DNA of 64,000 nt from assembly GCF_946885955.1 (NCBI RefSeq), contig NZ_CAMPHI010000028.1, positions 4,608-68,607 on the forward strand. The letters are read 5' to 3'. This stretch comes from an uncultured Pseudomonas sp. Its GTDB lineage: Bacteria; Pseudomonadota; Gammaproteobacteria; Pseudomonadales; Pseudomonadaceae. The translations under genes and the position numbers were made by a program. Positions 2,912 through 47,439 of this stretch are shown here, piece after piece; the first letter of the stretch is position 1; the number at the start of each line of letters is the position of its first letter. Below the pieces are notes generated by a model. It was not told the origin of the DNA. It worked only from the letters and a program-made list of their open reading frames with translations, and searched no databases.

Positions 2912-4808
<1,897 letters not shown>

Positions 4809-4812
<4 letters not shown>

Positions 4813-7641: not shown

Positions 7642-7646
7642 GGCGG

Positions 7647-8171: not shown

Positions 8172-8186
8172 GGGTGCTACTCCTTC

Positions 8187-8328
8187 GCAGGCCGTTGAAA
8201 AACTACCTGCGTTGCCAATACTGCGTTAAAAACAGCCTCAAAATGCTCATTTACAGCACGTAAACTCCGCTTTTTCGGCTGTTTTTGCCTTGTCTTGCCT
8301 GCCTCGGCTACGTTTTTCAAAGGCCTGC
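8187..8328. repeat. 142-bp palindromic repeat between sheath and tube genes
   Basis: The ends are inverted repeats: GCAGGCCGTTGAAAAAC at 8187-8203 and its reverse complement, with one mismatch, at 8312-8328. Internal partial complementarity (TTAAAAACAGCC against GGCTGTTTTTGCC) extends the fold. The right end touches the TAG stop of the sheath gene and the left end abuts the tube gene's ribosome site. It resembles the small non-coding palindromic elements scattered between Pseudomonas genes. No target-site duplication is evident. Confidence 0.75.
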
Positions 8329-9917: not shown

Positions 9918-9923
9918 GGGCAT

Positions 9924-10504: not shown

Positions 10505-12187
10505 TTAGAAAATAAACTCTTCCTCTACAGGCGGGTGCAGCTGACCCGCACTTGCATCGCCGAGTAGATGGGCGCTTATTTTTTCAGCGATCATCATGGT
10601 CGCGATATTGGTAGGGTTTGCAGTAATAGCGGGCATTACGGATGCATCGGCGACGTGGAGGTTTTCGCATCCATATACTTGTCCTTGCTGATCTACAACG
10701 GCCAGAGCGTCACTTTCCGGCCCCATTTTCAGCGTCCCTGTTGCGTGCCATGATCCCCGGGCGAAGGTCCTGATGCTCTCCTCGAGTAGTGCGTCAGAAT
10801 CAATTATGCGTTGGTTCCAGGCAAAGATACGTGAGATATGACGGTTGAATTCCGTCTCATGGGCGATTTTCCATATCAAGCGCGCTCCGGTTTTTAGCCT
10901 GTCCAGATCACTTCTGGATGTCGCAACATTCAAAAAAATATCAGGGTGTTGTTGTGGATTGGCACTGAGAATTTGCACCCTTCCTCTCGACTCAGGCGTT
11001 GTCAGGAGCAAAGTAAGGGACATTGCAATATCTGTCCCCAGCGCCAGTTTTAACTCCGGCAAATGTCGGGTCTGCATAGAGTTGATGGCATAAATCTGCA
11101 GGTCGACATCGGCACTCTGTTGCCCGGATGAAGAGCAGCGCAGCAGGGTCTGATGAACATCTTCGCCGGCCTGACAGAGCCCGGGCTGTGGCACCATCCA
11201 GAACCCTAGCGAGGTATGATCCGTCAGGTTCATTCCCACGCCTGGCAGCGCAATAGTTGGGCTTATACCGACTTTCGCCAGCGTCAGAGGATCACCTATG
11301 CCGGAGCGCATCAATATACAAGGCGATTGAATCGCGCCTGCACAGAGGGTGACACGCTTCGCCGTTATCTTCTGAGAGCGGCCATTCGCGATTATTTCAA
11401 TTCCAGTTGCCTTGTTGTTTTCAATATTGATTCGATTAACCAGCGTGTCGGCCATTAAACGGAAATTTTTTCGCACAGGTGCCGATGCTAAATAGGTCAG
11501 CGCCGTGGACTGACGAAGGCCATTGGCAATATTTCGCGGGATTATTCCCACCCCTTGCTGGCGTAAGCCATCAGGGTGATGGTTCAAATCGATCGCCTTG
11601 AAATCGAGTTGCTGGCAGGCAGCGCTAAAGCTGCTCTGAACCTTGTGCAGTAGAGACTGTGGCGGCGTATGCAGCTTGATACTACCGGTTGCCGCTGCAA
11701 TGACTTTTTCCAGGTAGGGTTTTACCTGATGCCAGTCCCAATCGGGGTTCCCTTGCGCTACCCACGCGTCCATATCCCTGCTATCCGGAGGTAAGGCAAG
11801 GGCGCCGTTGATTGCCGAAGAGCCACCAACCAAACGGCCCAGAGGATAATTAAAGCGGGTTAATCCAGACTCTCTGCCGAGCCCTGTCTGCAATGCTGTT
11901 CTGGCCATAGCCATTTTACTGGCCAGGGATGAGGAACCGAACACACCTGCCGCGTCTTTCATGCTTGCTATCAGGTTCGCCTCGCGGACATAGGCTTTGA
12001 AATCCCAGTTATAACCACTGAGCACGGCTTCATGGGTCGTGGTCAATTCCCTTGGTGGTGTTGAGCTGAAACAATCCGGCCCCGCTTCTACGAGTAATAC
12101 CCGGCGCGATCCATCTTCACTGAGTCGGGCGGCAACAACCGCGCCGGATGAACCGGCGCCAATAACAATTTCATCGTAGTCGAACAT
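10505..12187 (-). CDS. GMC-family flavin oxidoreductase (first of two)
   Basis: The 560-residue protein has an N-terminal FAD-binding GAGSSGAVVAARLSE motif (from residue 10), GPDCFSS near the flavin, the GRLVGGSSAINGA signature, CAGAIQSPCILMRSGIG, and the C-terminal GSWHATGTLKMG active-site histidine with LHVADASVMPAITANPTNIATMM. Here the second active-site position is Asn, giving a His/Asn pair. GMC enzymes oxidise alcohols or aldehydes, or sometimes C-N bonds, with FAD. By context it likely acts on the NRPS product, for example reoxidising an alcohol made by the terminal reductase domain. A ribosome site AAGGA precedes the ATG at 12187. It is the last gene of the cluster transcript. Confidence 0.9.
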   Translation of the reverse strand: MFDYDEIVIGAGSSGAVVAARLSEDGSRRVLLVEAGPDCFSSTPPRELTTTHEAVLSGYNWDFKAYVREANLIASMKDAAGVFGSSSLASKMAMARTALQTGLGRESGLTRFNYPLGRLVGGSSAINGALALPPDSRDMDAWVAQGNPDWDWHQVKPYLEKVIAAATGSIKLHTPPQSLLHKVQSSFSAACQQLDFKAIDLNHHPDGLRQQGVGIIPRNIANGLRQSTALTYLASAPVRKNFRLMADTLVNRINIENNKATGIEIIANGRSQKITAKRVTLCAGAIQSPCILMRSGIGDPLTLAKVGISPTIALPGVGMNLTDHTSLGFWMVPQPGLCQAGEDVHQTLLRCSSSGQQSADVDLQIYAINSMQTRHLPELKLALGTDIAMSLTLLLTTPESRGRVQILSANPQQHPDIFLNVATSRSDLDRLKTGARLIWKIAHETEFNRHISRIFAWNQRIIDSDALLEESIRTFARGSWHATGTLKMGPESDALAVVDQQGQVYGCENLHVADASVMPAITANPTNIATMMIAEKISAHLLGDASAGQLHPPVEEEFIF

Positions 12188-12215
12188 GCCAGAATCCTTA
12201 CGGGTGACTCAGCGG

Positions 12216-12986
12216 CTACAACCGCCAAACTTCGATAGGGGCTTCCTGCTGTAGCCATCGATTGAGCTGCTCTATCCAAGGGTGATGGCGCTCAGTGAGA
12301 TAAAAGTGATCCCCCTCAAACCAATGCGGGTTAAAGGCGGAGCCTGCGTACTGGCTCCAGGCTTCAATTCCCGTTCGGGAAACACAATGATCCGCATCGC
12401 CGGCGCAGGCGATCAAAGGGCAATCAAGTAACGGTAACGGAGGATGGGCGCGGTAGGTTTCCAGCACCGCATAGTCGGCCCTGATGATAGGAAGAAGGCT
12501 TCGCATCAGGTCTGGATCATCAAGTAAGGCGGGCGGTGTTCCGCCCAGAGCAGTTATATTCGAGATTATTTCCTGCTCACTGGCGTCATGGGCACAGCGC
12601 GTATGGCAGGACCTGACGTGAGGTGCATTGGACCCTGAAACTATCAGCCCGACCAAAGACCTCAATGGCTCGCCATATAATGCTTGCGCCACTTCGTAAG
12701 CGACTAGGGCTCCCATACTGTGGCCGAATAACACTAGCGGAAGAGCAGTCAATGGCTGTAACTCACGGCTCACGTGAGTAACGATATGCTCCATACGCGT
12801 TAGTCGCGTTTCCTGAAAACGTTCTTCCCGACCGGGCAATTGCACGCCTATCAGCTCGATATCGGGGGCTATTCGTCCAACGAGCTTGCGGAAATAATTG
12901 GCGCCACCGCCCGCCCAGGAAAAACATAGCAGCCGTAAACGTGGGTTATGTGGTTGCTGGAAATAGCGAAGGCATTTTCCCTGCAT
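12216..12986 (-). CDS. type II (editing) thioesterase of the biosynthetic cluster
   Basis: This is a 256-residue alpha/beta hydrolase of the GrsT/RifR type: LLCFSWAGGGANYFRKL oxyanion region, IGVQLPGREERF, nucleophile in GHSMG (S90), an acid region CAGDADHCV, and a catalytic-His region EGDHFYL. Type II thioesterases clear misprimed or stalled acyl groups from carrier domains. The ATG at 12986 gives the usual family length and begins 20 bp after the second GMC gene stops. A longer frame to 13115 exists but would overlap that gene by over 100 bp. It sits between the two GMC genes in the same transcript. Confidence 0.9.
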   Translation of the reverse strand: MQGKCLRYFQQPHNPRLRLLCFSWAGGGANYFRKLVGRIAPDIELIGVQLPGREERFQETRLTRMEHIVTHVSRELQPLTALPLVLFGHSMGALVAYEVAQALYGEPLRSLVGLIVSGSNAPHVRSCHTRCAHDASEQEIISNITALGGTPPALLDDPDLMRSLLPIIRADYAVLETYRAHPPLPLLDCPLIACAGDADHCVSRTGIEAWSQYAGSAFNPHWFEGDHFYLTERHHPWIEQLNRWLQQEAPIEVWRL

Positions 12987-13006
12987 CTGCCCCCGAGTTT
13001 GTATCG

Positions 13007-14587
13007 TCAATTCCACTGCTGGAAACCAGCCGCCATTTTTTCCGCCAGCATAATGGTGGCGAGATGCGGCGATGCACTGGGAGTGCTCGGCATGACTGAG
13101 GCGTCGGCGAGCCAAAGATTGTCGACGCCAAAAACTTGCCCTTGCGGGTCCACCACCGCGCCGGCATCGGGAGATTTACCCATCTGCGCCGAGCCGCATA
13201 GATGGGCGGTCGGACGCACGTAAGCCATGATCGCGCGCTCCAGAACGACGTCGGATGAAAACATCCCCTCGGTCCAGCCCAACATACGTTCGAACAAGGA
13301 CTGCAGTTGTGGTTTTTTCAGCAGTTCCCATGCCAGACGGACGCCATTCATGAGGGGCGGAATATCCCCCTGGTCAGAAAGATGATTGAGCACCACCTTC
13401 GGTGCTGCGTAAGGGTCGGCTGAAAGGATATGGACGTAACCGCGTGACCGGGATTTGGCCAGGCAGACGCTTAAACCGGCGACATGCGACAGCCCAGCGG
13501 TCGACGCGCGTGCCGCGAACGCTGTGTCGAAGTCGCCGGCCATCATGCGAATGTGGATATCGTTGGCATAAGAGGATGCGCGGGATGAGCAACGCAACAA
13601 TGTCTCGTGCAGCGGCTCCTGCGCCATGCATACGCCAGGTTTTGGTACTCCCCAGATACCGACACTGGGATGGTCCATCAGGTTTTTGCCAACGCCGGTT
13701 AACGGTCCCATCACCTTGATACCGAGAGGCTCAAGGATTGCGGGGTCGCCAATGCCGGAGCGCATAAGCAACGCCGGTGTGTTGATCACGCCGGCGCAGA
13801 GCACGATCCTGTCCGCATGGATTTGGTACTGCCGCCCCTGCGCTGCAACCTCGACGCCTTTGCAGCGCGAGGCACCATCCCAGATGAGCCGGCACGCATG
13901 CGCATCGGTCAAAATGGACAGATTTTCCCGTGCGCGTGCCGAGGCGAGATAGGTCATGGCTGACGACATGCGCACGCCATCGTTGACATTCTTTGGAATC
14001 ATGCCGATTCCTGGCAAATCCGGATGGTTGTGGTCGGCGGTTTCAGGGAAGCCATGAGCGACACAGGCATCCACCATTGCTGCCTGCAATGGTGTCAGGT
14101 TTTCCTTTTTCTCACGCCGGATAGGCACAGGTCCGCCCCTTCCGTGTAAACCATCAGGCGCGATCGGATCATCTTCGAGTGCCCGAAAAAAAGGCAAGAC
14201 CTGCGACCAGGACCAACCAGGGCCGCACGTTTCTGCCCATTCGTCGTAGTCGTGCGGCATCCCCCTCAACGCCTGCACCGTGTTGACGGCAGAAGACCCG
14301 CCAAGCAGTTTTCCGGCCTCATAGTCCCAGGTGCCGGCCCTCGCTCCATCGCCTTTGATATAGGTATTGATTTTCCAGTTCAGCCCAGGCCTTACCGCCG
14401 GAAAATTCGCGTCGCGTACCGCCAGCCTCGCCGCCTCCGATGCGGGCTCCTGCGGGCCGGCTTCCACCAGCAATATCTTGCGCTGGCCACCCTCACTCAA
14501 ACGGCTGGCGACAACCGCGCCGGCAGCACCCGCGCCGACGACGATGACGTCGAAGTGTTCGGCAGCCAAGTCGGTATGAGGCGTCAT
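13007..14587 (-). CDS. GMC-family flavin oxidoreductase (second of two)
   Basis: The 526-residue protein has VVGAGAAGAVVASRLSEGG as the FAD dinucleotide motif, AGKLLGGSSAVNTVQALRG, CAGVINTPALLMRSGIGDP, and the C-terminal HLCGSAQMG with LWLADASVMPSTPSASPHLAT. The active-site pair reads His/His, unlike the His/Asn pair of its neighbour, so the two are paralogues with possibly different chemistry. Its ATG overlaps the stop of the small membrane protein gene (ATGA), with GGAG 8 nt upstream. Composition is more GC-rich than the other GMC gene, suggesting separate histories. Confidence 0.9.
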   Translation of the reverse strand: MTPHTDLAAEHFDVIVVGAGAAGAVVASRLSEGGQRKILLVEAGPQEPASEAARLAVRDANFPAVRPGLNWKINTYIKGDGARAGTWDYEAGKLLGGSSAVNTVQALRGMPHDYDEWAETCGPGWSWSQVLPFFRALEDDPIAPDGLHGRGGPVPIRREKKENLTPLQAAMVDACVAHGFPETADHNHPDLPGIGMIPKNVNDGVRMSSAMTYLASARARENLSILTDAHACRLIWDGASRCKGVEVAAQGRQYQIHADRIVLCAGVINTPALLMRSGIGDPAILEPLGIKVMGPLTGVGKNLMDHPSVGIWGVPKPGVCMAQEPLHETLLRCSSRASSYANDIHIRMMAGDFDTAFAARASTAGLSHVAGLSVCLAKSRSRGYVHILSADPYAAPKVVLNHLSDQGDIPPLMNGVRLAWELLKKPQLQSLFERMLGWTEGMFSSDVVLERAIMAYVRPTAHLCGSAQMGKSPDAGAVVDPQGQVFGVDNLWLADASVMPSTPSASPHLATIMLAEKMAAGFQQWN

Positions 14588-15012
14588 GGCGCGATCTCCA
14601 GCGCAACCGCTTGTCCGTCACGCTGACGGCCTAGAAACACCCGGCCCAGGGTGTAGACGATGCAGTAAATGCCACCGATCAGCACTGCGGGAAGAATCGT
14701 TTTGATGATCTGGGGTGTGCCGGCCAGCCAGTGCGCAAAACTCTGGACGGCAGCGATGAACAGGATGGTCGAGGCTGACGCGGCTGCGAAGCGCAGGGAC
14801 CTCGCTGCCGCACTGGCGACGTAGAGGATGTATTCGATCAGCATCGTACTGAGGTAAGTCATGGCAAAGCTGCACAGACCTTGAACCAGTCCGGCCGGCA
14901 GACTTTTTCCCCAGCCGAATTCATGGTTCGCGTAAACCGCCCAACTGCCCTGGATGAAAAAGGCCACGCAGGAAATCAGAAGGGCCTTTCTGTTCGCATT
15001 GCTTTGATTCAT
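14584..15012 (-). CDS. small membrane protein with four predicted helices, unknown function
   Basis: The 142-residue protein starts MNQSNANRKALLISCVAFF. Hydrophobic segments lie at about 10-28, 40-64, 75-96 and 108-130, with a short charged C-terminus. The ATG at 15012 has CCGGGAG 8 nt upstream. An ATG at 15036, 3 bp after the NRPS stop codon, is the alternative. It is co-transcribed between the reductase-terminated NRPS and a GMC gene. A role in export, self-protection or holding enzymes at the membrane is possible, but I recognise no family. Confidence 0.75.
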   Translation of the reverse strand: MNQSNANRKALLISCVAFFIQGSWAVYANHEFGWGKSLPAGLVQGLCSFAMTYLSTMLIEYILYVASAAARSLRFAAASASTILFIAAVQSFAHWLAGTPQIIKTILPAVLIGGIYCIVYTLGRVFLGRQRDGQAVALEIAP

Positions 15013-15039
15013 ATGGTTAGCTCCCGGAGTTCGCATGGC

Positions 15040-18000
15040 TCACCAGCCCGCATTGAGGCGGACAGCGCGCCAGTAGTGCGGCGGTGTGAGCTGGGCCAGT
15101 CTTGGTGCATAGCCGTGGCCTTCAAGGTAGTGCGTGTGAAACGCGTGCTTGCTGAAAATGTTATCCACCGCCATGCCCACGGACCTGTGGCTGAACAGCA
15201 ACTTGATCAGCGCTTCCTCGCGCGGCGATAAACCGTCGACGTGCTGTACACAGCGCGCCTTCCACTCGTCGAGAGTTACCAGCGGCGGTTCTACGGAGTC
15301 GCCATGCCGCCCCTCCAGCAGCACGCTCAGCAAATCCTTGAAATTCAGCGGGTCGCGGTTCTCGATATGCACGATCCAGCCGTCGTCCTCTTGGCCCAAC
15401 GCGTCTTCGACGATCAGCCGGCACAGCATATCCACGGGTAGACCGGGCAGCCGGGAGTCGGGCCAATCGGGCACCACACCGACCCGGCAAGCCACCTTGA
15501 GGACGGTGTTATAGGTATCGTTCGGTTTGTGCATGCTCGTGCGCGCCGAAGGCAAGGCGTGCGAGCTGCGATAGATGCGCACCGGCAGCCCACGCGCTGC
15601 GGCTGCCAGCAGCACCTGCTCTGCGGCCCATTTCGATTGCGCATAGTTGGTCAACAGACCGTGTGGATGATCCTGGCCACGCTCCTCCTGGAAGACGACC
15701 AGCTGACCGTCGAGATGGCGCCGGCATATCGTCATCGGCGAAATGGCATACACCGGCTTCAGGTGATGTTCATTCGCCAGACGAACGATCCAGCCGAGCG
15801 AATGCACGTTGGTGCGGCTATGGGTGTCGTAGTCGATCATCACATTCAACGATGCGCCGAAGTGGTGGATCGCATCGACCGATGCAGCCAGTCGTTGCCA
15901 CTCGACGCTATCCAGCCCCAACGCCGGCGCTGCGAGATCCCCGCACACTGCCTCGATGCGGGCCAATTGAGCTGCATCGAGGGTGATGCCGCATTGGCCC
16001 AGCTGCTCGAGCACACGCTCACGCGCATGATACTTATCGTTCGCGCGTACCAGGCAGTAGACCTTGGCGTGTGTCTGCTCCAGCAGTTCCGCGACCGCGT
16101 GGCAGCCAACCCAACCGGTAGCGCCTGTTACCAACACCGCACGCGGTTTGGCGCGCGGCATTTCGCTCTGGCCATCGAACTGCAGCGCATCGAACTCTGC
16201 CACCAGGCGCTGAACATCGGCCTGCACTGCGGCAGGATCGGCCAAGGCCCACTCGGCTGCGCCCAAACTGTCGGAATCCGGCTGGGCGCCGTCGCTGTAG
16301 GCGGCAATCCTCTGCTCATACAGCGTCGCCAGTGATTCGATCGTGAGATTCTCGAAGAGCTCGTGCATCTCCAGCACCACGGGAAAAACAGTGTTGAGCT
16401 CGCGCATGAGTTGCGTGGCCATCACCGAGTCGCCGCCCAGCTCGAAGAAGTTGTCGGTGACGCCAATCTCCGTGTCGACGAAGACCCGCGACCAGGCATC
16501 GAGAATGGCGTGCTCGGTGGGGGTGCGGGGCGATACGCCCAATAAGGCGGCGGGCTCCTCGACCACGGGCGGTAACGCCCGCAGGTCCACCTTGCCATTC
16601 GGGGAAACCGGAATGCGCTCCATCACCACCACATGGCGCGGCACCATGTAGTCAGGTAGATGCTCGCTCAGATGCTGACGTAGCTCGGGAATCTGGGGTG
16701 GTTCTACGCACTCGGGAGCGAACTCGATGTAGGCGACGAGCTGGCGGCGTTCGGTCGATTCACCGATAGGGACGAGCAACGCCTGCCGAATGGCCGGGTG
16801 CCAGCGCAGCACTGCTTCGATCTCGCCCAGTTCGACGCGGTGGCCGCGGATCTTGATCTGGCCATCGTCGCGGCCAAGGATCACGACATTGCCGTCCGCT
16901 GCATAGCGGCCGAGATCGCCGGTGTCGTACAGGCACTCTCCAGTTTGCGGGTGGGTAACGAAACGCGCGGCGGTCTTCTCGGCATCGCGCCAGTAGCCGA
17001 TGGCCAGGCCGATACCGCCGATGTAGATGCGCCCCTTCACATGGTCCGGGCAAGCCCTGAACGCCTGGTCGTACACCCAGACGCTCTGGTTCGGCAACGC
17101 CTTGCCATAGGGGATGCTGGTCCATTCCGGGGAGACTTCCCGTACCGGATGGTAGATCGACCAGATCGACGCTTCCGTCGCGCCGCCCAAGCTGACGACT
17201 TCGGCCTGGGTGTAACGCCGGTGGATGCGCTCGGGCAAGTCGAGCGGGATGAAATCACCACTCATGAGCACGGTGCGTAGCGGCGCGGCTTCTTCTTCGC
17301 CCGGCAAGAAGCTATCCATCAGCATGCGCATGAGTTGCGGAGCGGAGTTCCACAGCGTGACCTGGTGCTGCACGATCAAGTCGCGCCAGTGGATCGGATC
17401 ATGCCCCTTGCGAGCGTCGGGCAACACCAGCGCGCCGCCCGCGGCGAGCAGGCCGAAGATGTCATACACCGAAAGGTCGAAGCTCAGTGACGAGACGGCC
17501 AGCACGCGGTCCTGTGCGCCGACACTGTACAGGCGGTTGATATGCTGGATCGTGTTGAGCGCACCGCGATGGTCGATCATCACGCCCTTGGGTACGCCGG
17601 TCGTTCCCGAGGTGAAAATGACATACGCCAGCTCGTCGAGCGGCGGCTCCAGAGAGCGGGCATGCAACGGACCGTAGGCGCTCGCGACACCGGCCCGGAC
17701 TGCATGAATATTCCATTCGTCGGTGTTGAGTTCCTCGCGCCCGGAATCCGGTTGCGTAAGGACATGCTCGACTTCGCCGATGCGCAACAGCTCCAGCTGG
17801 CGTTTCGCCGGCAGGTCCGCATCGATCGGCATGTAGGCGCCACCCGCCAGCAGCGTGCCGAATACCGCGACTATCTGCTCCCATCCTTTGCGCATCACAA
17901 CCGCTACCGGTTGGCCCGGACGCACGCCGGATTGGGCCAGCCAATCGGCGACGGCCGCGCTTTCCGCGAGCAGTTCGCCATAGGTCAGGTTGCGCTCCGG

Positions 18001-19656: not shown

Positions 19657-19817
19657 ATGCTTTCCTGTAGTGTCTGTTTTCGCAGGTGTTGAATTCGGAA
19701 TTCAAATTGCGGACGTCCATGATTCCCTCAAAAAACTCACGACACTGGCTCTTTTGCGTGCTGAAGCAAGAGAGGCAAACCGGCGGCGCCCAGTTATCGT
19801 TTGTATTCATCAGTTGC
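19657..19817. other. intergenic gap inside the biosynthetic cluster
   Basis: These 161 bp lie between the small membrane protein stop and the reductase-type NRPS start. The ribosome site AGGAAAG for the NRPS is at its left end. Nothing coding or clearly regulatory was seen. Confidence 0.4.
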
Positions 19818-20246
19818 TCATGCCAGGGCCCATACCGGCTGCGTTTCTTTCGCCCAGCGTATCGCGATAAACGTCACCCATATCCCAAGACCGTGATGGG
19901 CAAAATCAAGCAAATGAAATATTCCAAACGGTTTGGTGCCGGTGACCAGATGAACGACTTCATGAACCAACATGACCCCGGCAAGGACGCCGGTAATACC
20001 AACTACCATCCATCGAAACCACGATGCATTCAATGCACAGACGAGCATGGGAACGAAGGCATGCAGCAACATCAGTAACACCATGACTTTCAGCCCATTT
20101 TCACCTTCTCTGCTTTTAAATACGGAAAGGTCATCCTGAATGACACTTGTCGCAAACTCCGTCAAAAAGATGCATACCAGAACCAGAAACATCAAGATCC
20201 ATCCCTGAGCAACAATGTATCCAGTTGAATTATGGTGGTTGTTCAT
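19818..20246 (-). CDS. small membrane protein with four predicted helices, His-rich, unknown function
   Basis: The 142-residue protein has hydrophobic stretches at about 13-33, 52-73, 78-100 and 112-132, with histidines in the later helices (VHEVVHLV and DFAHHGLGIW). A good ribosome site (TAAGGAAG) precedes the ATG at 20246. It lies between the two NRPS genes on the same strand. It does not resemble the other small membrane protein of the cluster beyond size and topology. The clustered histidines could bind a metal, but no family is recognised. Confidence 0.75.
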   Translation of the reverse strand: MNNHHNSTGYIVAQGWILMFLVLVCIFLTEFATSVIQDDLSVFKSREGENGLKVMVLLMLLHAFVPMLVCALNASWFRWMVVGITGVLAGVMLVHEVVHLVTGTKPFGIFHLLDFAHHGLGIWVTFIAIRWAKETQPVWALA

Positions 20247-20335
20247 TACGCTTCCTTATTCATGATTGGATTAACTGCTAACAGACAACTGATTTGAAAT
20301 TATCAACTTCAACCAGCTTCCATGCTCCGCAACTT

Positions 20336-23300
20336 TTACACCACGGATTCAGTGATCTGGGCGTGAGTGTCCATTACGGGACGAGCAAGCCAGCGTTCAA
20401 TCTGATCGATCACCTGGTTCAATGCGGGTGCTGATAGAAGGGTGTAATGACTGGCATCTATGTATTCGCCGGTGACTTGCCCCGAGCAGATATGCGACCA
20501 GCCCCAGTCGGCAGAACCGGAGTCAGGATGCAGAGCAAACTCGGATACCCGGCCATTCGCTGCACGCAAGTGCAGCAAGTCGATAGCAACCGGCACTGCC
20601 TGATAGCGCCTGCTGGCGTTAACGATATTTTTGAATACGCCGTAAATGATGCTCAGTTGGCCGAGATCGGCACCGAGCGAATGGCCCTGCTCGGCAAGGG
20701 CCGCTTGGATCAATTGCAAACGAAGGTTTTCGTCAGCGATATTGGCGATCCGACCCTGCAGCGCGTTAACCGTCTGGGTATCTAGATTGAGATCGCTCAA
20801 AAACCAGTTGAATAACTCCTCTTCATTCACCACTGCATGAACGGTAGGTGGTGGGCTATCGAGGATAATCAACCCTTCCAATATCCGACCTTGAGCGGAT
20901 AGTTGCGAAGCCATTTCATACGCGATTAAGCCACCCGAAGACCAACCGCCGAGCAATATCTTTCCGCTCGGCTGCAGTTGATTGATCCTCTTGACATAGG
21001 TCGAGGCGAAAGCCGCGATCGAGTCCGGCGGCATTTGTCGGCCATCAACACCGGGGGCTTGGAAGGCAAATACCGGGCGGCTCAAGCGTTGCCCGAACTC
21101 GCTATAGCACAGTACATTTCCGCCCGCCGGATGCACCATGAAACACGCTGCGCCTGAACCGTTGCTGTCGATAGTTACCAAGGGATCGAATTCGCAATTT
21201 CGTTCACGGCTGGTGATAATTCGAGCGAGGCTTTCCAGATCCTGATACTGCCAGATATCGCCGATGGATAAAGCCAAGCCGAATGCTTCTCGAATTAGTC
21301 CGACGATCCAAACTGCTTCAAAGGATTGACCGCCCAATTCAAAGAAATTATCCGTAGCGGATATTTTTTCCACATTCAGGACTTGGCACCAAATACTTGC
21401 CAGAACTTCCTCAGTGTGACCTTGTGGAGCTCGACTCGATCTAGCGCTGGTGTTTGTTTGATAGTCCAGAATGGGCGGTAATGCCTTGCGATAAATTTTC
21501 CCATTCGCACTAAGAGGTAACTGCGTCAGCGCCATAAAGAGGCACGGAACCATATAATCCGGCAAGCGCGATGCCAGTGCAGCGCGTATTGCTGAGTAAT
21601 CGAGCTGCATATTTTCCGAGGCAACCAGATACGCTGCAAGTTGTGCTTGGCCGCCTTGGGAATTATGTTGCACGGTGACTAACGCGTTACTGACACCGGG
21701 TTGATTACTAAGCTGGCTTTCAATCTCTCCCAGTTCGATCCGATGGCCCTGGATTTTTACCTGGGTATCACGGCGGCCTAAAAATTCGATCACGCCGCCT
21801 GGTAAATAACGTCCCACGTCGCCGGTACGATAGATCCGCTCGCCAGTCGCTGGATGAGCAACAAAACTATGCGCTGTTTTTTCCTCATCGTCCCAGTATC
21901 CGAGGGCCAGCCCAACACCGCCGATATACAGGTCACCGGCAACCCATTCCGGCGCCGGTCTTCCCCATGCATCCAAAATGAACCAGGACTGGTTCCGCAT
22001 CGGAAAGCCATAGGGAATACTGGGCCACTCAGGTTTTATTTCGCCAATTTCGTAAATAATTGACCATATAGAGGCTTCAGTCGCGCCGCCCAGGCTTACT
22101 ATTTTGGCGTTTGGGGCAACCGCGCGAATACGGTCTGGCAAATCCAAAGGAATCCAGTCGCCGCTGAGCATCACCAGGCGCAGTTGCGGCAGCTGAGCGC
22201 CACGAAACTCTGCAGCTTCTACCATTAGGCTGGCCAAGGGAGGTGCAGAGTTCCAGATGGTAATCCCCTCAGCCAGCAGCACATCGAGCCAATGGGATGG
22301 GTTGAGGGAGTGCTCGGAGTTCGGATAGACCAAGCAGGCACCGGCGGCTGCCGCGCCGAAGATGTCATACACGGAAAGATCGAATCCGAATGAAGACACA
22401 CCGAAAAGCTTATCGTTGGAGCCAACAGAAAAACGCTTATTAATATCGAGAATCGTGTTTACCGCTCCCCGATGATCGATCATTACCCCTTTGGGCTGGC
22501 CAGTTGAGCCTGAGGTATAAATGAGATAGGCGAAGGCGGTTGTGATTGATGCGGTAGACACTGGGCCAGACCGAAGCTGTCCAGACCGGCTAATCACGAT
22601 TTCCATGGTTTGGATCGAACTGTCAGTAAACTTTCCGCTGTAGCAGTTCTCTAGCAGCGCGAGCCGCGCCCGGCTGTTGGCGAGATAAAAGTCTTGCCTT
22701 GCTTGAGGCAACCCGGGGTCTATCGGTATATAAGCCGCCCCGGCCTTTAAAACGGCGTAGACAGCCGTGAGCAGGGCGCAGCCACGCCGTGCAACTATCG
22801 CCACCCGGTCACCTTGCTTGACCCCTTGCTCGATTAAACGCAAGGCCAACTCATCGCTTGCTGAGGCCAAAGCTTGGTAGTCGATTTGTTCGCAGCCACT
22901 GGTTGCAGCACTTCCAGGCGGATTGTGTGCGGCTGCAATGTCCAGTAAATGGTGCAAACAACATGTGCTTAAAGGCGCGGCTTCCGGGATTACCGCTTCA
23001 CGCTCCTGCAAGTGACGAGCAGGCAATAGCTGATGAGCCTGGTTTGACCAGGCGGCAGGAGACGCGGCCAGCCTTTCCAACAAGCTGTGGTAGGCGGCGA
23101 GCATATCGCTGATCATCCCGTTCGGGAAAAACTCTTCCAGCAAGTCCCATACGTAGTAATAACGACCATCAGCCAACTCCCAAAACTGATGGTCGAGCAT
23201 GACTTGCGAAGTTTCGAGGCAGCTGAAATCTGGCCGCTCAAAACCCTCCATAAACAAGCCGCTACCGATAACGAAGGGTATAGGCGCTCGCCCAAATCCA

Positions 23301-24541
23301 CCTTGCTGTTGATTGAGCGATTGCATTACCCGCATGCCGCCCCAGCGCAAATGCTGGGTATCGCGAGTCACCTGCTGCTGAATATTTCGCGCCTGTGTAA
23401 CAAAGTCCTCGCCGTCTCGCAGATTGATCTCGAGCGGATACAGGGAGGCAAAATTGCCGAGGATGTCAAAGATTTCGGGGTGAATAGGCAGGCGACGAGT
23501 CACCATATTGCTGAGTACAAAATGGCGCTGGTTGCTCCAGGCACCGATCACTTGCGCGTAGGCTGCGAAGATCGCGGCTGACGGCGTCAGGCCCTGTTGT
23601 CGCGCGTTTTCCTTGAATTGCCGCCAGAGCTCAGGCGGCAGGAACATCTCGCGGCGTTGCAGTCGGGATCGGCTGCGTCTTTCCAGCCCCTGACGTACGG
23701 GCAACTCCGGAGCCCCAGGTAGGAGTGGCAGACGCTTTTCCCAGTAATCGCGATCCGCTTTACCAGCAGAACATTCGGCCAGCTGTTCAAGGGTCAGGAC
23801 GGCATCTCGAACACTGAGCGTTAATGGCGGTAGCGCCAGCGTCGGATCCCGGTAATAAGCATCAATTTCTTTCAGAAGCCGTGTAGTACCACCGCCATCG
23901 GAAAAGAAATTGTTATGGTTATAGTGCACACGCCCCTGTAATCCCGTTTCATCGTGCCAAAGCGATATTCGCAAATCCACCCAAGGCCAACGGTCCAACG
24001 GTAATTCCGCGCGTTGCATATTCATGCGGGTCTGTTCAAGCGAACTAACTACATCTGCGGCTGAACACTTACGCAAGTCGATAATTTCACAACGCAAAGG
24101 CGAGGGGTTTTCAAGAATCTGTAAATTGCCATCATCGGTTACAACAACAATTTCTCCCGCGTGGCGCTTAAGGGCTTTGTTCCAGGCCGCCTCATAAGTA
24201 GCGACGTTCAGTGCCGGGATATTTTTTTCAATGTAATAATGCGGCCTCACATGGAATTCCATGAAGGCGTCCGCCGCCATAAAAAAACCACGCTGAAGAT
24301 CCGATAGCGGGTAAGGCTTATAGCGATTTTCCAGATCAGGAAGGCATGTGGGCCACGCATCCTCTACGGCATCGTCGTTCTGACGTAGCCAGCCAAGCAA
24401 TGTCTGCTTATGAGCAGAGAGTGCTTGTTTAATTTCAGCGGTCAGCGCGCCTTTTGGCGCCGATATTTTTAGGTTGCCGCCATCACAACTCAAGGTAATT
24501 GAATAGTGATCCAGTAATTGTAATAGCTGAGTTAAAGTCAT
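20336..24541 (-). CDS. NRPS module: TubC docking - degenerate Cy - A(Cys) - PCP - TE
   Basis: The protein has 1,401 residues. Residues 1-50 are a TubC-type docking domain. A Cy-family condensation domain follows, but its DxxxxDxxS motif reads N210...D215..G218 (NNFFSDGGG), missing the first Asp and the Ser; the downstream TSQVMLDHQFWEL element is still Cy-like. The A domain (YTSGSTGQPKGV, FDLSVYDIFG, IWNSAPPL, LSGDWIPLDLP, LGGATEASIWS) gives the same cysteine-type code as the other NRPS. The PCP is FFELGGQSFEA. The terminal thioesterase has GWSSGG as nucleophile elbow, ILDSPPP and SHYTLL with the catalytic His. Its ATG overlaps the PKS stop, so it is the natural partner of the PKS. Release should be hydrolytic or by cyclisation. 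Confidence 0.92.
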   Translation of the reverse strand: MTLTQLLQLLDHYSITLSCDGGNLKISAPKGALTAEIKQALSAHKQTLLGWLRQNDDAVEDAWPTCLPDLENRYKPYPLSDLQRGFFMAADAFMEFHVRPHYYIEKNIPALNVATYEAAWNKALKRHAGEIVVVTDDGNLQILENPSPLRCEIIDLRKCSAADVVSSLEQTRMNMQRAELPLDRWPWVDLRISLWHDETGLQGRVHYNHNNFFSDGGGTTRLLKEIDAYYRDPTLALPPLTLSVRDAVLTLEQLAECSAGKADRDYWEKRLPLLPGAPELPVRQGLERRSRSRLQRREMFLPPELWRQFKENARQQGLTPSAAIFAAYAQVIGAWSNQRHFVLSNMVTRRLPIHPEIFDILGNFASLYPLEINLRDGEDFVTQARNIQQQVTRDTQHLRWGGMRVMQSLNQQQGGFGRAPIPFVIGSGLFMEGFERPDFSCLETSQVMLDHQFWELADGRYYYVWDLLEEFFPNGMISDMLAAYHSLLERLAASPAAWSNQAHQLLPARHLQEREAVIPEAAPLSTCCLHHLLDIAAAHNPPGSAATSGCEQIDYQALASASDELALRLIEQGVKQGDRVAIVARRGCALLTAVYAVLKAGAAYIPIDPGLPQARQDFYLANSRARLALLENCYSGKFTDSSIQTMEIVISRSGQLRSGPVSTASITTAFAYLIYTSGSTGQPKGVMIDHRGAVNTILDINKRFSVGSNDKLFGVSSFGFDLSVYDIFGAAAAGACLVYPNSEHSLNPSHWLDVLLAEGITIWNSAPPLASLMVEAAEFRGAQLPQLRLVMLSGDWIPLDLPDRIRAVAPNAKIVSLGGATEASIWSIIYEIGEIKPEWPSIPYGFPMRNQSWFILDAWGRPAPEWVAGDLYIGGVGLALGYWDDEEKTAHSFVAHPATGERIYRTGDVGRYLPGGVIEFLGRRDTQVKIQGHRIELGEIESQLSNQPGVSNALVTVQHNSQGGQAQLAAYLVASENMQLDYSAIRAALASRLPDYMVPCLFMALTQLPLSANGKIYRKALPPILDYQTNTSARSSRAPQGHTEEVLASIWCQVLNVEKISATDNFFELGGQSFEAVWIVGLIREAFGLALSIGDIWQYQDLESLARIITSRERNCEFDPLVTIDSNGSGAACFMVHPAGGNVLCYSEFGQRLSRPVFAFQAPGVDGRQMPPDSIAAFASTYVKRINQLQPSGKILLGGWSSGGLIAYEMASQLSAQGRILEGLIILDSPPPTVHAVVNEEELFNWFLSDLNLDTQTVNALQGRIANIADENLRLQLIQAALAEQGHSLGADLGQLSIIYGVFKNIVNASRRYQAVPVAIDLLHLRAANGRVSEFALHPDSGSADWGWSHICSGQVTGEYIDASHYTLLSAPALNQVIDQIERWLARPVMDTHAQITESVV

Positions 24542-27500
24542 AGCACAAATACCTCTTCATCTTCGCTATGACGCTCACTTGCAGAAAGATTTTCGTCAGT
24601 CGAATGCGCTAATCGCTGGAGCAAGATCTGCTGCTTTAACAGTTCAATGACTTCTCCGACCGAGGCGCCGCCAAGGAGCAAGGCAGCAGGCACGTCGACA
24701 CCTAGCCAATCCCTGATTTGTTTGCGTAAATCGACAGTGGTCAGCGAGTCGATACCTAATGAGGTGAACTGCAAATCAACGAAAGAACTTTTATCGCTGA
24801 GTAGTTGTTGTTCATTGGTTCGCATGGCGTTTGCTATAAGGACACCAAGACTGGTTACCAAAAGATCATGCGTCTCCTCGGCGTGTAGATTTCGCAATTG
24901 ATCCATCGATGGCAAAACTGAAGTAGTTTGGCTGGCGCTGTGTGCAATTGAGGTTGGCTTGGTGTTTTTGCCTAAATTTGCCGGCTCGACATCTTGGGCT
25001 TTCGTTACGATCGGCGGAACGATCTGCGCCGCATTGATCCAGCAGAATTTCAGTCCTTGTATATTTCCTACTGGCTCGCCGTCCGGGGTATATAACCAAA
25101 TATCAGCACAGTTAGCTTCCGTCTCTGACAGCCTTGCAACAGCAAGAAGATCTTTATCGGCCGAACGATATAAAGTGTATTGGCTTACACTCACAGGAAG
25201 CGGTATTGCTCCATCGATTGTTTCTGCAAGCTGCGTTACTAGCTGTAGTGAGCCGTCAAGCAGGGAAGGGTGGATGGCAAGGCAATTTTCTGGCAATGCT
25301 TTACAAGACTCAGGAAGGTGCAAGCGGCCATAAATCTTTCCGCTCGATGCCATTACATGCGTAACGACTTGAAAGCCCGCCCCATAGGTCAGGCCTTTAT
25401 TCAGGCATTGCCGGTAAAAGTCATGCTGGGAAACACTGGGGATAAATTTAAAATCTTCCAGTGAGTTCATGTACAAGTTTTCAGTGAGTTTTGCCTGGCT
25501 GCCTGCAGCATATTTTGCCGTGGCAAATATTTGCCACTCTTCTTCCCCCATCGAACGCCCTGCGATATTTATATTCCAGTTCAGGTCGTTTACGTTTTGA
25601 CGCATCAGCATCGTTTGTAACCGTAGCTGTGTGCTTTCCAGCGATAACGGCAAGTGAAACTGTATATCGGACAGTCTAAAAGGCTCAACCGTCATATCAG
25701 CAGCGCCCAGCGCTGCGCTCGCGCAGCTGAGATATGCCGCCGCGGGCATGAGGCTGTGACCGTTTATCCTATGGTCGGCAAGGTAAGCGCCAAAGTCTTG
25801 CATAGGGTTGGCTTCGAAACAGACGAAGTCTTGCGCCGCCACATCTATTCTTCTACCCGGCATTCCTGCGGCAAGTGTTCGGGGCAGGTTTTTCAGCGAA
25901 GGTTTATTAACCGATACCCAATAGGCACGATGATCAAATGGATAAAACGGAAGCTGCACCGCAGCTGGGTTTATGCTACCGGTTAGCGCAGTAAAAGCAG
26001 GATCGTATCCGGCCTCGAAGAGCTGGCCGGTAGCCGTGAGCAATGACCGACGAGAGGTTTCGCCGGGCTTTATGCTGGCAATCAACGTTGCGTCATGGTT
26101 CTGATCATCCAGGATTTGTTTGGCGAGGTTGATCATCATCGATGAAGGGCCAATTTCCAGCAAATGCGTAACACCCTGTTTGACTAGTGTTGTAATACTC
26201 GCTTGGTATTGAACAGTATTACGCACATGACTCACCCAGTAATCCGCAGAACAGAACGCTTGGCTTTCTACGTTGCCTGTGAGGTTGGATATCAACTTTA
26301 TATTCGGCGTGGAAAATTTCACGCATTTGAACGCTTGATGAAACTCCTCCAGAACCGGCTCCATCAACGCGGAGTGAAATCCCTGGGATACATCTAAAGG
26401 TCTAAACTCTATTCCTCGCTGCTCGAACATGGCGACGGCAACATCCATTGCCGTGGTTTCACCTGAAATAACTGTGCTATTTGGCGAATTGAGTACCGCT
26501 ATATCTACCGGCGAGCTGATCGATTGTAAAATTTGCCTGACTTCAGTTTCTGGCGCGAATATAGCCACCATTTTTCCTGGCGCGCTGATGCCGCCGATGA
26601 GCTGGCCACGCTTGGCCACGATATGGATGGCGTCTTCAAGTGAAAAAACACCAGCTATGCAAGCCCCCGTCAGCTCACCAATACTATGACCAATAATGAA
26701 ATCAGGCTGTATCCCCAAGGACTGCCACATCTTCGCCAACGCATATTCAAATGCAAACAGGGCAGGCTGGGTATATTGAGTTAAGTTAATGTCTGAACTG
26801 TCCTCGTCAAACATTAGACTAATGGTCGATCTATTTAACAAAGGGCGCAGCAGCCTGTCGCATTCGTCCAGTGAAGTCCGAAACGTAGAATTCCGTGTAT
26901 AGAGGTCTGCTCCCATACCTGGGTACTGAGAGCCTTGGCCACTGAAAACAAAAGCGATTTTTGAATCAGCCCGAATTTGACGACAGCCATTGTCCTTTTG
27001 AAGGTTATAAAGTTTTGACGACATCTCTGTGGCGTCATTGGCTAGAATTGACTTGCGATAAATCAAGCCGGGCTGCGATTGATTGGCCGCTGCACACAGT
27101 TCATTAAGCCGCTGGGGAAACTCTGCCAGTTTCATTGCGTAGTCAATGGCTAGCTGCTGTAAGGACTTAGCGCTGGCCGCTGAAATAGTCAGCAGCGCGG
27201 GGGCCGCAGCAGCTTTTATTTCTGTGGCAATACAAGGCTCGAAGCCCGGGGGCTGTTCGACAATCAAGTGCCCATTTACACCACCGAAGCCGAAAGAGCT
27301 TATTCCCGCACGCAGCGGAAATGGGTTTCCCTTACTGTCGAGCACGGCATGCCATGGCCGTGTACTTTCGACTATATGAAAGGGTGAGTCTTCTAGCTTG
27401 ATTCGTGGGTTGACTGTTTTAAAAGCAGCGTGGCCTGGTAGTGTTTTATATTTCAGGGCCAGCAGCACTTTTATTAACCCGGCCATTCCTGCTGCGCATT

Positions 27501-28557
27501 CCAGATGCCCGATATTGGCCTTGACCGCTCCCAGTCCGCAAAAATGCTTCGTATTGGCATTCTGCTGCAGCTGATTGAAAGCACGCGTTAAAGCATGGAT
27601 TTCAATAGGATCACCCAGCGGGGTTCCCGTGCCGTGCGTTTCAATGAAATTAATGGAGTGAGCCGGGATATTGGCCTGCTGCACGGCATCGACAATTGCT
27701 TTGGCCTGCGCCCATGCACTAGGCGACGTCAGCGACCGAACCTTGCCGCCATGATTGATGGCGACACCTTTGATCACTCCCCAAATGCGATCCCCATCCG
27801 CCTGTGCTTGAGCGAGAGGTTTGAGCATGACCACGCCAGCACCCTCACCACGCACATAGCCATTGGCGTCACTGTCAAAGGCAGAGCATTTTCCCGAGGG
27901 CGAGAGCATGCCCATTTTGCCAAATCGCACAAAGGTAGTGGGGGTGAGCAACAAACCAACGCCGCCCACCAGCGCGGACTTACATTGACCAAGCTGAATA
28001 GCGGAAACAGCCTGTTGTATGGCAACCAGCGAACTTGAGCAGGCGGTATCAACCACTACACTGGGGCCGTGAAAATTAAAGAAATAGGAAAGCCTATTTG
28101 CAATCACGCTGTTATGAACGCCGGTCGCCTCATGACCTTCTGGCGAATCGGAATAGCGTTCCTGGAGCTCTTTATAGTCGTAGCTACCAGCGGCAACGAA
28201 AACGCCAACATTCTTGCCGACCAAAGTACGCGGATCTATACCTGCATCCTGAATGCAATGCCATGCCTGTTCCAGCATGAGGCGCTGCTGGGGGTCCATG
28301 CACTCCGCTTCACGCGGAGATATGCCAAATAAAGCAGTATCAAAATATTCCGGGTTATCTATGAACCCTGCCCAGCGGGAATAGCCCTGCGCGATTGATT
28401 CCTTTGCCGTGTGTTGATTACGCCAATCCCATCGGGATAATGGCGTTTCCCGCACTGAATTTTCCTTGACGACTAAATTGTCCCAATATTCTTGATAGTT
28501 ATCCGCCCCCGGAAAACGACACGACATTCCGATGATTGCTGTATCTGCATGCGGCAT
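24538..28557 (-). CDS. type I polyketide synthase, KS-AT-DH-ACP, no ketoreductase
   Basis: The protein has 1,339 residues from the ATG at 28557, preceded by AAAGGA; an upstream frame to 28599 lacks a ribosome site. KS: DTACSSSLVAI with Cys173, ETHGTGTPLGDP and ANIGHLECAAG. AT: FSGQGSQYPGMG, GHSIGELTGA and GFHSALME, the malonyl-type arrangement. DH/PT-like domain: HRINGHSLMP (HxxxGxxxxP) and LLDGSLQ. ACP: SLGIDSLTTVD. No KR is found between DH and ACP and there is no loading domain. The same KS-AT-DH-ACP layout is known in iterative bacterial orsellinate-type synthases, so an aromatic or partly unsaturated starter is a reasonable inference. The acidic C-terminal tail (SEDEEVFVL) suits docking to the TubC-type domains of the NRPSs. 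Confidence 0.92.
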   Translation of the reverse strand: MPHADTAIIGMSCRFPGADNYQEYWDNLVVKENSVRETPLSRWDWRNQHTAKESIAQGYSRWAGFIDNPEYFDTALFGISPREAECMDPQQRLMLEQAWHCIQDAGIDPRTLVGKNVGVFVAAGSYDYKELQERYSDSPEGHEATGVHNSVIANRLSYFFNFHGPSVVVDTACSSSLVAIQQAVSAIQLGQCKSALVGGVGLLLTPTTFVRFGKMGMLSPSGKCSAFDSDANGYVRGEGAGVVMLKPLAQAQADGDRIWGVIKGVAINHGGKVRSLTSPSAWAQAKAIVDAVQQANIPAHSINFIETHGTGTPLGDPIEIHALTRAFNQLQQNANTKHFCGLGAVKANIGHLECAAGMAGLIKVLLALKYKTLPGHAAFKTVNPRIKLEDSPFHIVESTRPWHAVLDSKGNPFPLRAGISSFGFGGVNGHLIVEQPPGFEPCIATEIKAAAAPALLTISAASAKSLQQLAIDYAMKLAEFPQRLNELCAAANQSQPGLIYRKSILANDATEMSSKLYNLQKDNGCRQIRADSKIAFVFSGQGSQYPGMGADLYTRNSTFRTSLDECDRLLRPLLNRSTISLMFDEDSSDINLTQYTQPALFAFEYALAKMWQSLGIQPDFIIGHSIGELTGACIAGVFSLEDAIHIVAKRGQLIGGISAPGKMVAIFAPETEVRQILQSISSPVDIAVLNSPNSTVISGETTAMDVAVAMFEQRGIEFRPLDVSQGFHSALMEPVLEEFHQAFKCVKFSTPNIKLISNLTGNVESQAFCSADYWVSHVRNTVQYQASITTLVKQGVTHLLEIGPSSMMINLAKQILDDQNHDATLIASIKPGETSRRSLLTATGQLFEAGYDPAFTALTGSINPAAVQLPFYPFDHRAYWVSVNKPSLKNLPRTLAAGMPGRRIDVAAQDFVCFEANPMQDFGAYLADHRINGHSLMPAAAYLSCASAALGAADMTVEPFRLSDIQFHLPLSLESTQLRLQTMLMRQNVNDLNWNINIAGRSMGEEEWQIFATAKYAAGSQAKLTENLYMNSLEDFKFIPSVSQHDFYRQCLNKGLTYGAGFQVVTHVMASSGKIYGRLHLPESCKALPENCLAIHPSLLDGSLQLVTQLAETIDGAIPLPVSVSQYTLYRSADKDLLAVARLSETEANCADIWLYTPDGEPVGNIQGLKFCWINAAQIVPPIVTKAQDVEPANLGKNTKPTSIAHSASQTTSVLPSMDQLRNLHAEETHDLLVTSLGVLIANAMRTNEQQLLSDKSSFVDLQFTSLGIDSLTTVDLRKQIRDWLGVDVPAALLLGGASVGEVIELLKQQILLQRLAHSTDENLSASERHSEDEEVFVL

Positions 28558-28644
28558 ATATATCCTTTCGGTCAAAATAGACTTAAAAATAACTACCAAT
28601 TCGGAAAGTTAAATTTATAGATATCCATATCAAAAATATCAGCG

Positions 28645-28740
28645 CTAAGTTCCGGCGAGTTGCGCAACCAGGGCCGAAGTGCAGGGCAGGGTAGAGGTCA
28701 CGTCGATAGCAATGGCATGGAAACTGGCGCTCTTGGTCAT
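28645..28740 (-). CDS. 31-residue peptide ORF upstream of the PKS
   Basis: The ORF starts MTKSASFHAIAIDVTS, contains one cysteine (residue 20) and ends in LVAQLAGT. GAGGA lies 7 nt before the ATG, a better ribosome site than chance frames show here. It lies 87 bp upstream of the PKS start on the same strand. It could be a leader peptide, a short precursor peptide or a non-functional frame. No homologue is known to me. The in-frame extension to 28926 looks like random sequence. Confidence 0.45.
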   Translation of the reverse strand: MTKSASFHAIAIDVTSTLPCTSALVAQLAGT

Positions 28741-30262: not shown

Positions 30263-30442
30263 GGCAGACACTGAGCAAAGGTTCCTGGAGGTACGGTCGG
30301 CAATAGAGTCGGCTATCGCGGTGTGAGCGCACCTAGCCGCGTTTGCTCAAGGTGCGCTTTGAACGGGAAGGTTGGGCATTCTAAGTGTCTGAGAAATCCG
30401 TGGCGACTCAGAATTCACCTGATCACAAGTAAGCCTAGGACT

Positions 30443-31875: not shown

Positions 31876-32055
31876 TCTGTTTCCTAATTGGTTAACATGA
31901 CTGATAATTGGCGCTTACGCGCGGCGGGCAAATGGTACGAAAATTCGCGGCACTAAGCTGTTTTGGTATGGCGCAGTGATATCAGTCTACGCTCTGCATC
32001 GCCAGTTTTTGGTGGGCTGCATCGGCGCATCGGACTGGATCACGAAGGGGGGATG

Positions 32056-36609: not shown

Positions 36610-36685
36610 ATCGCTGCGAGGCGATCGAGCCTCCCGCCACCACCTGCCCGGTGGTCAAAAATCCACTGAACAGGTAGTGGTGAAT

Positions 36686-47337: not shown

Positions 47338-47439
47338 CGGCAGCCACCTCATTCTATGGTTCACCATGAACGCAAAGGACATGGCCCGTTGAAAGAGTGG
47401 ATGCCAGAGACGGGTTTGTCGAATCAGCAGCTTAGGTAG

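Follow-up and report, generated by a model that had tools for sequence, protein, structure and literature searches.

The window (the whole 64,000-nucleotide stretch of Pseudomonas DNA that was analysed) contains an operon of eight genes, all on the minus strand, which we delimited from open reading frames and Pfam matches. In order of transcription, these encode a PKS (24538..28599, with a likely ATG start near 28557), an NRPS ending in a thioesterase (NRPS-TE; 20336..24541), membrane protein A (19818..20246), an NRPS ending in a reductase (NRPS-R; 15040..19656), membrane protein B (14584..15036), a GMC oxidoreductase (GMC2; 13007..14587), a type II thioesterase (12216..about 12986), and a second GMC oxidoreductase (GMC1; 10505..12187). 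This is the single-stranded gene set given in the original prediction. The type II thioesterase (PF00975, E = 1e-42) has a listed TTG start at 13115 that overlaps GMC2, and an internal ATG is the likelier start. An AraC/GyrI-like protein encoded upstream of the operon (29402..30271, minus strand; Pfam) is a possible regulator, judged by position alone. The core of the cluster recurs in five other genomes, all five of which have a match to the type II thioesterase; the contigs were scanned for relatives with exact 8-residue patterns, by which distant relatives can be missed.

The PKS has the domain order KS-AT-DH-ACP, with Pfam matches to ketoacyl-synt, Acyl_transf_1, PKS_DH_N together with PS-DH, and PP-binding, and with no KR, FAAL, or other loading domain detected. 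The expected motifs are present: Cys-His-His in the KS, GHSxG with xxFH in the AT, HxxxGxxxxP and LDGSLQ in the DH, and DSL in the ACP. It thus has the AviM-type order KS-AT-PT-ACP with a His-Asp dyad, as in the orsellinic acid synthases AviM and CalO5, which likewise lack a KR and have the dyad His and Asp (PMC9135731). Unlike the window, however, the AviM-like set described in the available text of that paper is actinobacterial, and a PDB search with the DH alone places the window domain nearest to the CurF DH, above any cyclase by name among the matches listed. No chain named AviM was returned by this search at E = 0.01, from a PDB copy that may not contain the AviM entry. With CurF as the first match, we dropped the deduction of an aromatic product from the DH sequence; an aromatic (orsellinate-like) acyl chain is a weaker guess, drawn from domain order only. 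The PKSs of the six clusters fall into two types, which are 43-47% identical in the KS.

Both NRPSs consist of a single module that starts with a TubC_N domain (PF18563) and continues with Condensation, AMP-binding, and PP-binding domains; by Pfam, NRPS-TE then ends in a Thioesterase domain and NRPS-R in a NAD_binding_4 thioester reductase. The A-domain positions read from the alignment are D-L-Y-N-M-S-L-I-W in NRPS-TE and D-L-Y-N-L-S-L-I-W in NRPS-R, in a position numbering that we assume and in a code, D-L-Y-N-[LM]-S-L-I-W, that we take to mean cysteine. The cysteine-type codes proposed earlier for both NRPSs are therefore borne out by the alignment.

The two condensation domains, in contrast, differ from each other in a way that the original prediction had not recognized: Only NRPS-R has a canonical Cy core. 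Its motif, D-LLIL-D-AW-S, follows the DxxxxDxxS pattern, which is found in NRPS-R of all six clusters. Cy domains have a putative catalytic dyad of Thr and Asp, with Gln as a helper (PMC9547227). In NRPS-R the dyad Asp is present in six of six clusters, Ser replaces Thr in five (Thr being found in L004 only), and the helper Gln position is occupied by His in five. NRPS-TE, on the other hand, lacks DxxxxDxxS in every cluster and has NHNNFFSDG in its place (23894..23920). Among the 120 NRPS-TE homologues listed, the first N of this motif is kept in 118, the second N in 111, and the D of DG in all 120; the canonical core appears in one. At the position of the dyad Thr, which lies within IPFVIGS (23261..23281; aligned to VLTS of EpoB), NRPS-TE has Gly in six of six clusters and in 116 of the 120 homologues listed, whereas the dyad Asp and the helper Gln are kept in 120 out of 120. 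Since the best eight PDB matches of the altered domain are Cy domains or Cy-containing modules, it is still derived from a Cy domain. The earlier claim that both modules are thiazoline-building Cy modules thus holds for NRPS-R but not for NRPS-TE, where core and dyad threonine are missing in all six clusters. We think it improbable that the altered domain is a dead remnant, leaving NRPS-TE only to supply free or thioester-bound cysteine for an off-line reaction, for example, thiazolidine formation with an NRPS-R aldehyde: The loss of the dyad threonine and the core motif would fit, but a dead domain should drift, and the altered positions (both N, the D, and the G), together with the dyad Asp, are conserved among the 120 homologues as counted above.

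By motif, GMC2 is of a His / His type and GMC1 of a His / Asn type, which we presume to be the catalytic pairs. GMC2 has counterparts of 52-56% identity in L001, L002, L003, and L008, and the single GMC enzyme of L004 is 46% identical to it. Out of the 120 NRPS-TE entries listed, 24 share a contig with a listed GMC entry, as judged by an exact size match of the longest contig. Membrane protein A is a four-helix protein (model pLDDT, 86.6) with conserved H..H and LD..HH positions. Across the aligned rows of its 53 homologues, H95, L113, H117, and H118 are invariant, and D114 and H99 are conserved in at least 90%; the strict pattern H...H-H..D..HH is found in 35 of the 53. In L001 this protein is fused to the C terminus of NRPS-R. 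Membrane protein B belongs to no family that we could find, having no Pfam match at E = 0.001 and no BLAST match at E = 1e-5 in L001-L004 or L008-L013.

The N-terminal domain of NRPS-TE is a TubC/beta-hairpin docking domain (24380..24541; residues 5-54), and the corresponding domain of NRPS-R has PDB matches to the docking domains of AerJ, TubC, and EpoB, whose structures are solved. The PKS ends in an acidic-hydrophobic tail, EDEEVFVL (24541..24564), a putative docking element with an equivalent in six of six clusters, across both PKS types. Since this tail is of a kind that matches TubC domains and both NRPSs start with one, a single PKS probably feeds the two NRPSs. The arrangement is similar to the SLiM/beta-hairpin systems of rhabdopeptide, enacyloxin, and romidepsin, in which an N-terminal TubC_N domain on the NRPS is paired with a short charged-hydrophobic C-terminal tail upstream, and in which a single tail is able to serve several partners (PMC9113145, PMC6195595, PMC13324335). 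Unlike in those systems, here one PKS is common to two NRPSs with different release domains, and a free GMC flavoenzyme ends in a conserved tail that is also of this type.

This second tail, VEEEFIF at the C terminus of GMC1 (10508..10528), resembles that of the PKS. The pattern EEEF-x-F is found in the window and in all 13 homologues of 64-93% identity, where it is invariant behind a variable linker, and in none of the 107 other homologues listed; none of the GMC enzymes in the other five clusters has it (that of L008 ends in VYAEYI). We rejected the tail score as proof of docking: GMC1 scores 19, and mechanical open reading frames reach up to 17, so the argument for this tail is its conservation rather than the match by itself. 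A review (PMC9113145) reports oxidases with SLiM-type tails as well as a SLiM shared by several docking domains, and SLiMs on oxidases in general are thus already known. In FR-901375 biosynthesis the SLiM is dispensable (PMC13324335), and a tail is therefore no proof of coupling.

Our preferred reading, to which we give a probability of about 0.4, is a forked PKS-NRPS line with two products: an aldehyde or alcohol that carries an acyl- or aryl-thiazoline, and an uncyclised cysteine product. We observe the genes present, their motifs and tails, and how these are conserved; the docking partners, the fork itself, and the chemistry of each step are ones that we infer. The PKS would build a short acyl or aromatic acid on its own ACP, and its C-terminal tail would dock on the TubC domains of both single-module cysteine NRPSs. 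On NRPS-R, the acyl chain and cysteine would be condensed, the canonical Cy domain would close the thiazoline, and the reductase would release the aldehyde (or alcohol); the thiazoline product originally predicted is reasonable for this NRPS, given its canonical core. On NRPS-TE, the Cy-derived domain would condense chain and cysteine but most likely halt at the acyl-cysteine amide or thioester, since it has lost the DxxxxDxxS core as well as the threonine for cyclodehydration, and the TE would release the product. In the photoxenobactin pathway, Cy domains have been proposed to stop at the amide or thioester (PMC9396620). The GMC flavoenzymes may oxidize the products or their carrier-bound forms, with GMC1 probably recruited to an NRPS through its PKS-like tail.

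The separate release domains of the two NRPSs, a TE versus a reductase, count in favor of the fork; the Ser and His found at the dyad Thr and helper Gln positions of most NRPS-R enzymes count against it, as does the lack of the GMC1 tail in the other clusters. Its main rival, which we consider possible but less probable, is a linear relay from the PKS through NRPS-TE to NRPS-R, in which the TE would act internally (in editing or transfer), while NRPS-TE would dock on the TubC domain of NRPS-R through its C-terminal tail (ITESVV, 20339..20359), giving a two-cysteine product that ends in an aldehyde or alcohol, much like a reductively terminated pyochelin-type scaffold. Cysteine-type codes in both A domains agree with such a relay. 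Five of the six clusters keep the collinear order PKS, NRPS-TE, NRPS-R, although in G003 NRPS-R lies on the opposite strand from the other two. The NRPS-TE tail is kept in the window's own clade (E-x-[MV]-V in eight and [MV]-V in nine of 10 full-length close homologues), which could mean that the chain is handed on, against the fork, but it is not kept in L001, L002, L004, L008, or L010. A TE after the PCP, as in NRPS-TE, also normally marks the end of a chain.

The relatives bear on a further rival, in which the operon would be a pyochelin-, micacocidin-, or massiliachelin-type pathway to an aryl-thiazoline chelator and the GMC enzymes would act late, in tailoring. In the massiliachelin, agrochelin, and micacocidin systems, as in the window, a PKS feeds cysteine modules. 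The massiliachelin enzyme starts FAAL-ACP-KS-AT-KR, and a thiazole aldehyde and alcohol were isolated alongside massiliachelin (PMC10291242). The PKSs of all five relatives contain a KR, and in those of L001, L002, L004, and L010 a FAAL-like domain precedes the KS, so that this FAAL-loaded type, close to the massiliachelin start, is common to four of them; NRPS-R of L004, moreover, contains a methyltransferase. The window departs from this type in its PKS, with neither FAAL nor KR, and in its NRPSs, which are two separate one-module proteins with TubC domains rather than a tandem, one with an altered Cy domain (NRPS-TE) and one with a reductase (NRPS-R); the pair of GMC enzymes and membrane protein A set it apart as well. 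Among the 36 proteins of the window that we scanned with Pfam, none matches a TonB receptor or a salicylate synthase, and a six-frame scan of the window with a signature that we assume to represent MbtH gives no hit, in agreement with the absence of all three noted originally. We therefore regard this chelator pathway as unlikely, and the chelator or signal role suggested earlier for the product finds no direct support.

Other known systems share parts of the set. Neither GMC enzymes nor a thioester reductase are mentioned in the available text of the agrochelin II paper (PMC12997852). Holomycin-type dithiolopyrrolone clusters have a cysteine Cy-A-T NRPS (HlmE), a GMC homologue (HlmD), and a free thioesterase (HlmC) (PMC3826145), but the operon differs from them in having a PKS and NRPSs ending in a TE and a reductase, and Pfam detects no acyl-CoA dehydrogenase, PPC decarboxylase, or acyltransferase among its proteins. 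In agreement with the original prediction, we found no described cluster with this gene set in the open-access literature searched. The LolA-like, MMPL, or MacB-type export genes and the HupE/UreJ protein carried by the relatives were not found beside the window operon.

In the genome sets searched with operon proteins, GMC1 is matched at E = 1e-100 in one of 399 genomes from the order of G002 and in two of 369 from the class of G001, and the NRPS-TE Cy domain at E = 1e-80 in one of 392 from the family of G002. Each of these sets includes its own centre genome (G002 or G001), and G701 is therefore the only new one. NRPS-R has no match of at least 60% identity in 2161 plasmid records.

More tentatively than the fork itself, we suggest that the NN-x3-DG domain of NRPS-TE may be a separate, widespread Cy-derived subtype of the condensation superfamily. 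It would join the acyl chain to cysteine by something other than ordinary amide formation and cyclisation (for example, as a stable S-acyl or uncyclised cysteine) and would cooperate with a GMC flavoenzyme docked to it, as part of a family of one-PKS, two-NRPS clusters that make paired products. If the forked reading is true, the cluster would be a natural test of what the DxxxxDxxS core and the dyad Thr contribute to Cy domains, since its canonical and altered copies use one amino acid and probably share an acyl donor. A free flavoenzyme that is brought to an NRPS by a PKS-like docking tail would likewise, if true, be useful for assembly-line engineering. Some named entries among the NRPS-TE homologues listed, from Pseudoduganella sp. 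LjRoot289, Herbaspirillum sp. HC18, Piscinibacter terrae, Verminephrobacter, and Paenibacillus, may put the product within reach in a cultivated strain.

ORF and Pfam analysis bore out the original prediction of the gene set, locating eight genes on the minus strand between 28599 and 10505, in the order PKS (KS-AT-DH-ACP), NRPS-TE (ending in a thioesterase), membrane protein A, NRPS-R (ending in a thioester reductase), membrane protein B, GMC2, type II thioesterase, and GMC1. Upstream of the operon, Pfam identifies an AraC/GyrI-like regulator (29402-30271). The active-site motifs of the PKS are all intact, and Pfam finds neither a KR nor a loading domain in it. In both NRPSs the aligned A-domain positions read D-L-Y-N-(L/M)-S-L-I-W, a code we take to specify cysteine.

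Just past the operon, an extracellular contractile injection locus (747-9923, minus strand) encodes a protein with eCIS_core and polysaccharide deacetylase domains, an AAA ATPase, a Pvc16-like protein, and baseplate, tube (gp19), and sheath proteins. Defence-like genes occupy 30679-39655 on the minus strand; these include OloB (E = 1e-212) and OloA (8e-84) as called by PADLOC, a 989-aa AAA protein partially matching Ppl, and two proteins that gave no match. A phage-type integrase (46084-47382, minus) and a weaker, below-cutoff integrase match (44551-45279, minus) are found near them and point to a possible mobile island. On the plus strand, a 363-aa protein (40032-41123) weakly matches the TumE toxin towards its C-terminus (E = 2.5e-05), and an RND efflux set (57825-63715) consists of an HlyD-type adaptor, an AcrB-type pump, and an OEP channel.

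NRPS-R was used to scan GTDB genomes and recovered four relatives at 55-60% identity, each of them a MAG, from Chromatiaceae (stretch L001), Oxalobacteraceae (L002), Rhodocyclales (L003), and Thiotrichaceae (L004). Searching genomes in the class of G001, one of the relatives, with GMC1 added G701 (stretches L008 and L015). All six clusters, counting that of the window, have NRPS-TE, NRPS-R, a type II thioesterase, and a GMC2-like enzyme. A second GMC enzyme is present in five (none in the fetched stretch of L004), as is membrane protein A (not found in L002), which in L001 is fused to the C-terminus of NRPS-R (L001 9965-15217), suggesting that the reductase works at the membrane. Membrane protein B was seen in the window alone. 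Four relatives carry a HupE/UreJ gene (L001, L004, L008, and G003, the last on stretch L010) and four a LolA-like gene (L001, L003, L004, and L008); transporters are MacB/FtsX in L001 and L003 and MMPL in L004 and L008. In L002 the scan covered three neighbouring proteins: one is an ABC ATPase, another an M56 peptidase, and the third has no assigned family. The NRPS-R of L004 (10001-15793) has a methyltransferase domain inserted between its A domain and C-terminal part. The cluster is rare in the sampled genomes (1/399, 2/369, and 1/392, the centre genome counted in each set). Among 120 listed NRPS-TE homologues, 24 have a contig of exactly the same size as one among 120 listed GMC homologues, which ties the two families together well beyond the window; this linkage reaches entries named Pseudoduganella, Herbaspirillum, and Piscinibacter.

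The clusters contain two types of PKS. A FAAL-like domain precedes the KS in four relatives (L001, L002, L004, and L010; in L004 as a separate ORF on the short upstream piece L016), with none in the PKS of L008 or of the window. KR is found by Pfam in all five relatives' PKSs and is absent from that of the window. KS domains of different types share 43-47% identity and those of the same type 58-67%, whereas the NRPSs are 52-60% identical. The window's KR-less PKS, with its intact DH, has the same domain order as the orsellinate synthases described in PMC9135731; the DH sequence itself does not single those enzymes out.

Alignment of the condensing domains shows a canonical heterocyclization (Cy) core in NRPS-R in 6/6 clusters, with Ser replacing the dyad Thr in five. 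NRPS-TE has NHNNFFSDG[GY]GTT where Cy domains have DxxxxDxxS, and PFV[IV]GSGLF instead of PVVFTS, while retaining the dyad Asp (LDHQ), each in all six. A database search gave at least 264 NRPS-TE homologues among 7995 scored candidates, and 120 were listed and counted. Of these, 118 have the first N of the altered core, 111 the second, and all the D of DG; one has the canonical DxxxxDxxS. G stands in place of the dyad Thr in 116 and T in one, and all 120 retain the dyad Asp and the helper Gln. By sequence the domain is still Cy-derived, since its eight top-scoring solved structures are all Cy domains or modules that contain one; they score 105-191 bits with it and 208-348 bits with the Cy domain of NRPS-R. 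The NNxxxDG of NRPS-TE fits neither form of motif C3 given in PMC10212144, which has DxxxxD for heterocyclization domains and, nearly always, HHxxxD for the remaining subtypes. Since a Thr-Asp pair putatively serves as the catalytic dyad in Cy domains (PMC9547227), and since some Cy domains are proposed to go no further than the amide or thioester (PMC9396620), we infer from the altered core and dyad that NRPS-TE acylates cysteine without ring closure.

Both NRPSs open with a TubC_N docking domain (Pfam), with that of NRPS-R matching the docking-domain structures of AerJ, TubC, and EpoB. The C-terminal tails of all six PKSs are alike in kind (EDEEVFVL in the window; EDTEVFVL, AEHEEFVL, DEDTEVFVL, KEEAEVFVL, and DEDMEILVL) and appear to fit the SLiM class, whose last ~5 residues pair with the TubC-domain beta-hairpin (PMC6195595; PMC9113145). 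A single PKS would thus feed two cysteine NRPSs, each with its own release route; the leading alternative is a linear relay in which NRPS-TE hands its chain to NRPS-R. Because a SLiM is dispensable in FR-901375 biosynthesis (PMC13324335), the PKS tail is not proof of coupling on its own.

The C-terminus of GMC1 reads VEEEFIF. The pattern EEEF-x-F, behind a variable linker, is present in the window and in all 13 GMC1 homologues of 64-93% identity among the matches listed, and in none of the 107 remaining listed GMC homologues. A looser rule admits one further GMC homologue, P0059 (YEEFIV), and none of 120 listed NRPS-TE or 53 membrane protein A homologues; the GMC enzymes of all five relatives lack this type of tail. 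Scored against the PKS tails, GMC1 reaches 19, second of 146 window ORFs, but a mechanical ORF reaches 17, so the case for the GMC1 tail is its conservation. SLiMs on oxidases in general are already reported (PMC9113145), and the principle is therefore not new. A third tail occurs on NRPS-TE of the window's own clade: E-x-[MV]-V ends the window protein and 8/10 full-length close homologues, and 9/10 of those homologues end in [MV]-V.

With one PKS supplying both NRPSs, the GMC flavoenzymes would act on products or carrier-bound chains. Holomycin offers a precedent for a GMC homologue, assigned a two-electron oxidation, beside a cysteine Cy-A-T NRPS (PMC3826145), and bacillamide one for the binding proposed here, its oxidase binding the NRPS module during synthesis (PMC8795117). 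The listed homologue P0031, an 835-aa GMC oxidoreductase-thioesterase fusion 44% identical to GMC1, suggests that GMC enzyme and thioesterase operate as a pair.

The relevant searches of one open-access library listed no description of the cluster. The cluster belongs to an uncharacterised family, in which the Cy-derived domain of NRPS-TE is a known domain in a new form and the GMC1 tail probably puts an established docking device to a new use.
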